Part shown: positions 45,605 through 48,865 of the stretch, piece by piece
Numbering within the stretch: position 1 is the stretch's first letter
How the letters are laid out: every line of letters starts with the position of its first letter
Assembly: GCA_022652815.1 (NCBI GenBank)
Contig: JALCRR010000005.1
Span: 1-64,000, forward strand
Source: Oscillibacter sp.
GTDB taxonomy: Bacteria; Bacillota; Clostridia; Oscillospirales; Oscillospiraceae
DNA: 64,000 nt
Direction of reading: 5' to 3'
Position numbers and translations under genes: made by a program
Notes under the pieces: generated by a model
The model's database searches: none
What the model was told of the DNA's origin: nothing
Seen by the model: the letters and a program-made list of their open reading frames with translations, nothing else

Positions 45605-45680
45605 GCCGATTTTTACGGAAAATGTAAAAAAATTACGATTCCCGACACATATAATGGAAAATTGCGCTGCTTATGCGGCT

Positions 45681-45746: not shown

Positions 45747-45831
45747 TGGTGCGCCTGAAGGGACTCGAACCCACACGTCTTGCGACACAAGAACCTAAAT
45801 CTTGCATGTCTACCAATTCCATCACAGGCGC
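45747..45831 (-). tRNA. tRNA-Leu (anticodon UAG), CCA encoded
   Basis: Minus strand GCGCCTGTGATGGAATTGGTAGACATGCAAGATTTAGGTTCTTGTGTCGCAAGACGTGTGGGTTCGAGTCCCTTCAGGCGCACCA; acceptor GCGCCTG/CAGGCGC, anticodon loop TTTAGGT. Confidence 0.95.
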
Positions 45832-45928: not shown

Positions 45929-46771
45929 ATGACCACACCCCGCGTTGCAGCTATCCATGATATGTCCGGCTTTGGCCGCTGCTCTTTGACGGTGGCCATT
46001 CCAATTCTGTCTGCCATGGGTGTGCAGTGCTGCCCGCTGCCTACGGCGTTTTTGTCCACCCACACGGGCGGATTTTCTAATTTTACCTTTCTGGATATGA
46101 CAGATGAAATGGCAAAGGTGTCCGAACACTGGAAGTCCTTGAATTTGACGTTTGACGCCATATACAGCGGCTTTCTGGGGAGCGAGCGGCAGATCGGCGT
46201 TGTCGCGGATTTTATTCGGATGTTTCGTACCCCCGAGAACCGGATCATCGTGGACCCTGTCATGGGCGACGGCGGCAGAGTGTATCAGACCTATACGCCG
46301 GCCATGTGCGCGGGAATGGCACGTCTTGCGGATATGGCAGATGTAATTACGCCCAACCTGACAGAGGCAGCCTTTTTGCTGAACGTACCGTACGAAACCT
46401 TGCGCGGCGAGAAAGCTCTGCGCGTAGCGGTGGAGCATTTGAGCCTGTCCGGACGGCGGTCCGTTGCACTGACAGGTGTTTCCTTAACTGCGGGAAAGAC
46501 GGGCGCCCTGTGCTTTGACGCTGCAAATGGACGCACGGATGCGGTACAGACGGATTTCGTGGCCCACGAATTTCACGGAACAGGTGATGTGTTTTCCAGC
46601 GTATTGACCGGTGCACTGGTGCGGGGAGATTCCCTGCGGGATGCGGCGGCGCAGGCTGCCGAATTTGTCCGGGCATGCGCGGAGCGCACAGCTACGGAGC
46701 AACTCCCATTGCGGGAAGGCGTGGATTTTGAACCTCTGCTTGGTCGTCTGACGAAAAAAGAGGACGATTGA
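45929..46771 (+). CDS. Pyridoxamine/pyridoxal kinase family
   Basis: RVAAIHDMSGFGRCSLTVAIPILSAMGVQCCPLPTAFLSTHTGGF..IVDPVMGDGGRVYQTY..HEFHGTGDVFSSVLTGAL. Confidence 0.9.
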   Translation: MTTPRVAAIHDMSGFGRCSLTVAIPILSAMGVQCCPLPTAFLSTHTGGFSNFTFLDMTDEMAKVSEHWKSLNLTFDAIYSGFLGSERQIGVVADFIRMFRTPENRIIVDPVMGDGGRVYQTYTPAMCAGMARLADMADVITPNLTEAAFLLNVPYETLRGEKALRVAVEHLSLSGRRSVALTGVSLTAGKTGALCFDAANGRTDAVQTDFVAHEFHGTGDVFSSVLTGALVRGDSLRDAAAQAAEFVRACAERTATEQLPLREGVDFEPLLGRLTKKEDD

Positions 46772-46785
46772 TATGCAAAACACTG

Positions 46786-46823
46786 AAAAGAGGATCTCGG
46801 GCTTTGCCCGGGATCCTTTTTTC
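46786..46823 (+). terminator. Intrinsic terminator
   Basis: AAAAGAGGATCTCGGGC-TTT-GCCCGGGATCCTTTTTT. Confidence 0.8.
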
Positions 46824-46884
46824 ACGGGTTATTCCGCAGGCAGAGGACAAGCTGCAGCCAATTATCCGGCAGGAGCCAAAAACC

Positions 46885-46979
46885 AAAATTCGACAAAATT
46901 CGCGCAAATTCTGTGCTATTGTTACAAAAGAACCAGCAAAACACGAAAAAAGACGAAATAAGTCGAAAAAAGTCGTAAG
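46885..46979 (+). promoter_or_regulatory. Array of 10-bp-phased 0A-box-like repeats upstream of the Spo0A_C gene
   Basis: 46885-46914: AAAATTCGAC AAAATTCGCG CAAATTCTGT; 46940-46979: AACACGAAAA AAGACGAAAT AAGTCGAAAA AAGTCGTAAG. TTCGACA (46889-46895) is the reverse complement of TGTCGAA. Confidence 0.65.
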
Positions 46980-47063
46980 TGGATGTTTGCAGACGCAGAT
47001 GGGCGTATTTGCTCGATTGGCAATGGAACGCGCTAAAATATCAGACAAAAGGGGTAATTTTCC

Positions 47064-47426
47064 ATGACTGCTGATCAACTTGCCCGGGAACTGGGCATTC
47101 CAGGAAACTACACCGGCTACCGGCAACTGATTCTTGCTATGGAGCTGGCCACTGAGGATGAAAACCGTATTTTGAATATTTATCGGGATATTTACGGTGA
47201 AATTGCGCAGCAAAACCATACAACAGCAAGGAGCGTCGAGAAAAATATTCGGACTGTGCTGCGGGCGGCATGGCAGCGCGGACCGCATACCCGCCGGAGT
47301 TATGAGCGGATTGGAGGCTATTCCTGCATGGAAAAGCCCGTGACCAGCGAATTTCTCGATATTACGTCGGAATATCTGCGGAAGAATCAATCGATCGGCG
47401 AAGAATCGCTGGCGCAAAACAAATAA
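47064..47426 (+). CDS. Stand-alone Spo0A C-terminal DNA-binding-domain protein (no receiver domain)
   Basis: ELGIPGNYTGYRQLILAMELATEDENRILNIYRDIYGEIAQQNHTTARSVEKNIRTVLRAAWQRG..KPVTSEFLDITSEYLR matches the Spo0A_C layout. Confidence 0.85.
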   Translation: MTADQLARELGIPGNYTGYRQLILAMELATEDENRILNIYRDIYGEIAQQNHTTARSVEKNIRTVLRAAWQRGPHTRRSYERIGGYSCMEKPVTSEFLDITSEYLRKNQSIGEESLAQNK

Positions 47427-48322: not shown

Positions 48323-48865
48323 TTAGCCTTCCATATGCCGGCCAAGAAAGGCCGCAATGGTCTGCGCCAGTTTATACTCGGTCTCCCCGGTGGGAACCAT
48401 GGGGTCGGGGGAGATCATCAAGACCAGCCCCAGAAGGTCACCTTCCGAGAGGATGGGCGCTGCGATAGAGGTCAGCAGATGCTCGCCGCCATCTACAACC
48501 GGGAGTGCTTCATCAGCGGGCTGCCGCTGATAAATTTTGCGGCTTTCCATGATTTGCTCCAGTTCCGGGGTGATGCGCTTGCCAAGCATCTCTCGCCGAC
48601 CGCCACCGGCCACGGCAATTACCGTGTCTCGGTCTGTCACCGCGCAGATCAGTCCAGTGGATTTGTTCAGCGTTTCGCACAACTGGGAGGCGAACTCCTC
48701 AACGCCTCCCAGCAGGGAATACTTCTTAAAAATAACCTCGCCATCCCGGCTGGTGTAAATTTCCAGAGGATCACCCTCGCGGATGCGCATAGTCCGGCGA
48801 ATTTCCTTCGGGATCACGACTCTGCCAAGGTCGTCAATGCGGCGCACAATACCTGTTGCCTTCAT
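48323..48865 (-). CDS. spoVT: Stage V sporulation protein T (AbrB-type regulator)
   Basis: MKATGIVRRIDDLGRVVIPKEIRRTMRIREGDPLEIYTSRDGEVIFKKYS plus C-terminal GAF-like domain. Confidence 0.92.
   Translation of the reverse strand: MKATGIVRRIDDLGRVVIPKEIRRTMRIREGDPLEIYTSRDGEVIFKKYSLLGGVEEFASQLCETLNKSTGLICAVTDRDTVIAVAGGGRREMLGKRITPELEQIMESRKIYQRQPADEALPVVDGGEHLLTSIAAPILSEGDLLGLVLMISPDPMVPTGETEYKLAQTIAAFLGRHMEG

Follow-up and report, generated by a model that had tools for sequence, protein, structure and literature searches.

In the window, as we call the whole 64,000-nt stretch of Oscillibacter sp. DNA analysed here, a gene that appears to encode a Spo0A DNA-binding domain without a receiver lies behind a run of 10-bp repeats resembling 0A boxes. 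Is this run of repeats a genuine control element, and if so, would it be read by Spo0A, by the orphan protein or by both?

The gene is located as follows.

47064..47426, + strand: orphan gene for a stand-alone Spo0A_C protein (PF08769, phmmer, AlphaFold and Foldseek)

The first-pass annotation had described its product as a Spo0A_C domain and nothing more, a description borne out by both profile and structural searches. The 120-aa protein matches Pfam Spo0A_C (PF08769) with E = 4e-23 across residues 6–105. In the profile search that the annotation had proposed, the receiver models gave no match, and no Pfam or NCBIfam domain other than Spo0A_C was found. The frame is open over 122 codons and lacks an N-terminal receiver with a phosphorylatable Asp; against TIGR02875, the model for full-length Spo0A, the protein scores 55 bits (cut-off 200). 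By phmmer, it is related to the structures 1FC3/1LQ1 (5e-10), and these Spo0A effector-domain entries were the sole significant Foldseek matches of its AlphaFold model (mean pLDDT 93.7).

The recognition helix of the orphan reads VEKNIRT. It retains E213 and R217 and carries Lys in place of R214, all three of which we take, from the 1LQ1 work, to be DNA-contact residues of Spo0A. Among 96 orphans, the window protein alone has Lys at 214; E213 is conserved in 95 of them and R214 in 93. The second Spo0A_C gene of the genome encodes a full-length Spo0A (269-codon frame) with the canonical helix VERAIRH, and there are no others.

When the family was searched with proteins and profiles, 98 stand-alone Spo0A_C genes emerged, which were told from full-length Spo0A by score; such genes are common in this family. 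No close orthologue of the window protein was found in the genus, the sampled family, viral contigs or plasmids. The best pairwise match stood at 41% until L192, added later, became the nearest relative at 43% identity. In the first tree, the array-carrying orphans formed a clade (support 96/90), which left out the window protein, then on a long branch elsewhere. That placement was superseded once L192 was added: the rebuilt tree sets the window protein inside the array clade (96/92), a position that hinges on the inclusion of L192.

L192 adjoins a serine recombinase and an M23-SLH protein, and phage-type lysozymes lie near the clade members L094 and L053; no conserved operon partner was seen among the clade neighbours. 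A search of viral contigs with the L192, L060 and A2 proteins gave no useful match. Apparent phage matches (H5–H15; five records examined, four from phage collections and one plasmid) were discarded: they show canonical Spo0A effector domains with coding sequence ahead of them, and thus have the appearance of full-length spo0A genes of the host, in contigs that are unverified. Three further loci (L007, L057 and L059) hold another type of orphan (TNWKAVERNIR or similar), directly 3′ of a putative XRE-type regulator ORF, and their upstream regions are without arrays.

The window orphan itself has chromosomal neighbours and is not carried by a phage or prophage: pdxK (pyridoxamine kinase) lies on one side and a PrsW-like protease on the other, with spoVT beyond. 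The spoVT-like gene (48323–48865, − strand), which the protease gene separates from the orphan, scores 204 bits against TIGR02851, under the cut-off of 236. The long pdxK ORF, called from a TTG at 45662, overruns a tRNA-Leu gene (45747–45831, − strand), and the true kinase start is therefore probably the ATG near 45929. An RNA-family search gave no meaningful match.

Boxes upstream of the orphan gene

The upstream region contains the following features.

46791..46822, + strand: terminator-like hairpin and T-run 3′ of the pyridoxamine kinase gene, found by eye and not listed by a simple scan
46889..46895, − strand: single exact consensus 0A box TGTCGAA, upstream of the array
46941..46977, + strand: four 0A-box-like heptamers in 10-bp phase (46941 ACACGAA, 46951 AGACGAA, 46961 AGTCGAA, 46971 AGTCGTA)
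46991..47007, + strand: two weaker in-register units (46991 AGACGCA, 47001 GGGCGTA), from a two-mismatch scan, with G2, C4 and G5 kept
47034..47039, + strand: candidate −10 hexamer TAAAAT, proposed from the consensus
47047..47054, + strand: purine-rich, RBS-like AAAAGGGG, proposed from sequence

Because the terminator-like hairpin follows the upstream kinase gene, the array falls within the orphan's own intergenic region (46826–47063). Spo0A of Clostridioides difficile and Bacillus subtilis contacts G2, C4 and G5 of TGTCGAA (PMC3485338). The four tandem 10-bp units of the first-pass annotation were found where it had placed them, and three of them (46951, 46961 and 46971) hold these core contact bases; ACACGAA at 46941 lacks G2, and none of the four carries the consensus T1. 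An inverted second set of three units, claimed at 46885–46914, fared less well: two of its units miss at least two core bases, which leaves one real 0A box, the exact TGTCGAA complement at 46889–46895, and this box is not conserved across the clade. The weak units at 46991 and 47001 keep the array register and had been overlooked; the intervening register position, 46981, holds no box.

The intergenic region contains three in-register core sites, a number reached in 0 of 20,000 dinucleotide shuffles, with the motif picked post hoc, once the array had been seen. Across the 2.25-Mb genome, CGAA-N6-CGAA-N6-CGAA occurs once, at the array, and a reversed control pattern occurs twice; tandem RGWCGWA pairs number two overlapping at the array plus one elsewhere, against four for the control. 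Taken alone, these genome-wide counts are not significant against their controls. Likewise, TGTCGAA-N24–27-TANNAT is no more frequent across the orphan's own genome than its control.

The window heptamers start 33, 43, 63, 73, 83 and 93 bp upstream of TAAAAT. If this hexamer is the −10, the leader is short, with 24 nt between hexamer and ATG, and no exact box lies across it.

Box phase in related promoters

In the 200 bp upstream of the 98 orphans, 24 copies of TGTCGAA were observed against 2.4 expected, 22 of them on the + strand, and nearly all belong to the one supported clade. At least two in-register boxes occur in 10 of 18 clade promoters (the window included), compared with 2 of the 80 other orphans. 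The clade arrays are essentially same-strand, with boxes that start 33/34, 44, 53/54, 64, 74 and 84 bp upstream of the −10 hexamer, such that 28 of 31 clade sites fall at 3 or 4 modulo 10. When near-duplicates and array-less promoters are left out, a choice that selects for box count and not for phase, 22 of 25 boxes in 12 array-bearing clade promoters sit 33/34 + 10n bp upstream of the −10, as compared with a mean of 0.8 and a maximum of 5 in 2,000 shuffles. The window boxes at 83, 73 and 63 bp share the phase of the clade, provided that TAAAAT is the true −10; the hexamer was chosen by scan, and the chance of phase agreement with one hexamer is about 0.2.

Three loci fetched later from GTDB as a check (L194, L189 and L192) had no part in deriving this rule. 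It was repeated in two of them, with boxes at 64, 54 and 34 bp in L194 and at 34 bp in L189. L192 breaks it: this promoter has no array, and an inverted TGTCGAA lies in the −35/−10 spacer of what reads as a strong promoter. The clade members L033 and L047_475 also lack arrays. The conserved phasing that the annotation had asked of related promoters is therefore present in the architecture and not in the letter-by-letter sequence. Because the array recurs in related genes, at a constant spacing to the promoter, it looks like a real control switch. The pairing of a receiverless Spo0A_C gene with a phased array is real and recurrent; its function is what we infer below.

Two further features were observed in clade promoters. 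In L110, L120, L047, L005, L040 and L189, a TGTCGTA or CGTCGTA overlaps the −10, about 29 bp past the last array box (TGTCGTA in L110 and L120, for example TGTCGTATAAT); these boxes are possibly a second, repressing site. The leader of the L192 gene contains a long inverted repeat, GAGTGCTTTATAACC...GGTTATAAAGCACTC (L192:2421–2480).

Candidate readers of the boxes

At spo0A promoters from the same genus, the NGTCGAA box varies in its first position (T, C, A or G), and AGTCGAA thus lies inside the variation seen at presumed Spo0A sites. The isolated DNA-binding domain of Spo0A binds its targets without phosphorylation (PMC3485338). We consider it probable, on the evidence of sequence, that the region is a Spo0A-family-controlled promoter of a phosphorylation-independent effector, with both Spo0A~P and the orphan probably reading the boxes. 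The locus would then be a self-contained transcription-factor gene, a receiverless Spo0A effector joined to a phased 0A-type array promoter; because the receiver is absent, the effector should act independently of phosphorylation. Spo0A-family domains would be expected to line up head-to-tail on the array, one per 10-bp unit and on one helix face, and occupancy would extend down to the box 33/34 bp upstream of the −10, just 5′ of the −35 location. This geometry resembles that of activators, and activation upon a rise in Spo0A~P would therefore be the likeliest mode. The orphan, with E213 and R217 kept and Lys for R214, could itself occupy the array boxes and hold the state by autoregulation, or it might compete at Spo0A targets. 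That the array is bound, and by which protein, is inferred, as are the sign of control (from geometry only) and an effect on sporulation. Several observations count against this explanation: the degeneracy of the window array (no T1, and a first unit without G2), the candidate status of the −10, the short leader, the array-less L192 and the dependence of the tree placement on it, the array-less L033 and L047_475, and the fragmentation of one informative genome, G131.

The array could instead serve the Spo0A~P regulon and nothing else, with the orphan gene as a Spo0A target whose product does not bind its own promoter. We regard this as rather unlikely, although the boxes follow the Spo0A consensus and full-length Spo0A is encoded in 12 of the 13 array genomes. 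Tandem TGTCGAA (10 or 20 bp) also precedes non-orphan genes, among them spo0A in G086 (L162). Viral contigs contain tandem-box stretches, many of them near-identical (27 at 10 bp and 4 at 20 bp, with 8 for a 15-bp control), none of them beside Spo0A_C, and tandem boxes 26–28 bp before a −10-like hexamer are found there ahead of unrelated genes; tandem boxes would thus seem not to be unique to orphans. What argues against a Spo0A-only array is that arrays are concentrated in one orphan clade and are almost absent from other orphans, and that the metagenome-assembled genome G131 retains two orphans with three and four exact TGTCGAA boxes and yields no detectable full-length Spo0A. This case points to the orphan as reader as a hint only, because G131 is in 160 contigs and the absence of Spo0A is accordingly uncertain. 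Boxes in the subclade of L138, L139 and L194 drift to GTCGT, whereas the spo0A box of G033 is TGTCGAA, an argument that is weak because the spo0A box of G036 is TGTCGAT.

G131 differs from its genus in having no detected Spo0A and a split spoIVA: the spoIVA match (L305, G131:C49:1641–2341) consists of two overlapping pieces in different frames, from either loss of sporulation or assembly error. In both G131 and G359, spoIVB is followed by a recombinase, and the spo0A of G359 lies on another contig. In two viral contigs (L265 and L267), two TGTCGAA boxes 20 bp apart lie 33–35 bp before a −10-like hexamer and precede small membrane or lipoprotein-like genes, possibly Spo0A-responsive prophage genes.

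Autorepression, in which the orphan or Spo0A blocks the orphan promoter and keeps expression low, as at abrB, is to our minds similarly doubtful. The TGTCGTA over the −10 of several clade promoters (L110 and L120) and the inverted spacer box of L192 are positioned as repression would have it, but the dominant boxes stand clear of the core promoter, 33/34 bp or more upstream of the −10, and the candidate −10 of the window is free of an exact box. That the window array is without function, an AT-rich repeat that has decayed or arisen by chance, with the arrays of its relatives real, appears quite improbable: its units do lack T1, and the first G2, L192, the nearest relative, is array-less, and CGAA-N6-CGAA-N6-CGAA is no commoner genome-wide than the reversed control pattern, but none of the local shuffles matches its number of in-register core sites, its strand and phase are those of the clade, and the ORF is intact. 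In a more far-reaching proposal, a lineage of receiverless effectors would form a phosphorylation-independent, self-sustaining switch, a head-to-tail polymer on the array before its own gene. Such a switch could persist after loss of Spo0A and be partly prophage-borne, and at sporulation promoters it would compete with the Spo0A of the host or act ahead of it. We offer this as speculation that is unlikely to hold as a whole.

Relation to known systems

Receiverless Spo0A proteins were known; how they are controlled and what they read had been open. The promoter rule, with boxes placed 33/34 + 10n bp ahead of the −10 across related genes, links these proteins to 0A boxes in a concrete way that can be tested, and it lets one ask, in gut Oscillospiraceae and their prophages, whether a phosphorelay-blind Spo0A effector exerts feedback, either on itself or on sporulation.

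With Spo0A of B. subtilis and Clostridia (1LQ1), the window orphan shares the DNA-binding domain, the fold, G2/C4/G5 boxes and 10-bp tandem spacing. It differs in having no receiver, in its identity of about 31% and in R214K and A215N in the recognition helix; the orphan arrays are also longer and are sited before their own gene. The first-pass annotation was right that stand-alone Spo0A_C proteins exist, but they are known from more than annotations: receiverless spo0A homologues have been reported in human-gut phages and were proposed to act without host signals or the phosphorelay (PMC10294663). Like those, the orphans consist of the effector domain only, the proposed phosphorelay independence would apply to them equally and some clade members adjoin phage-type genes, whereas the window copy has chromosomal neighbours. 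The term '0A box' has no occurrence in the text of that report, and the phased array is therefore apparently not described there; in the open literature, which our search covered, no description of a phase-locked array before receiverless Spo0A orphans was found. The spo0A gene of B. subtilis is autoregulated through four 0A boxes, three downstream of Pv and one over the Ps −10 (PMC12090719). In both cases, the control region of a Spo0A-family gene itself contains 0A boxes, but the orphan boxes are same-strand, upstream and in register with the −10. The kind of protein is already known, and control through Spo0A boxes by a phase-locked array would be the new part.
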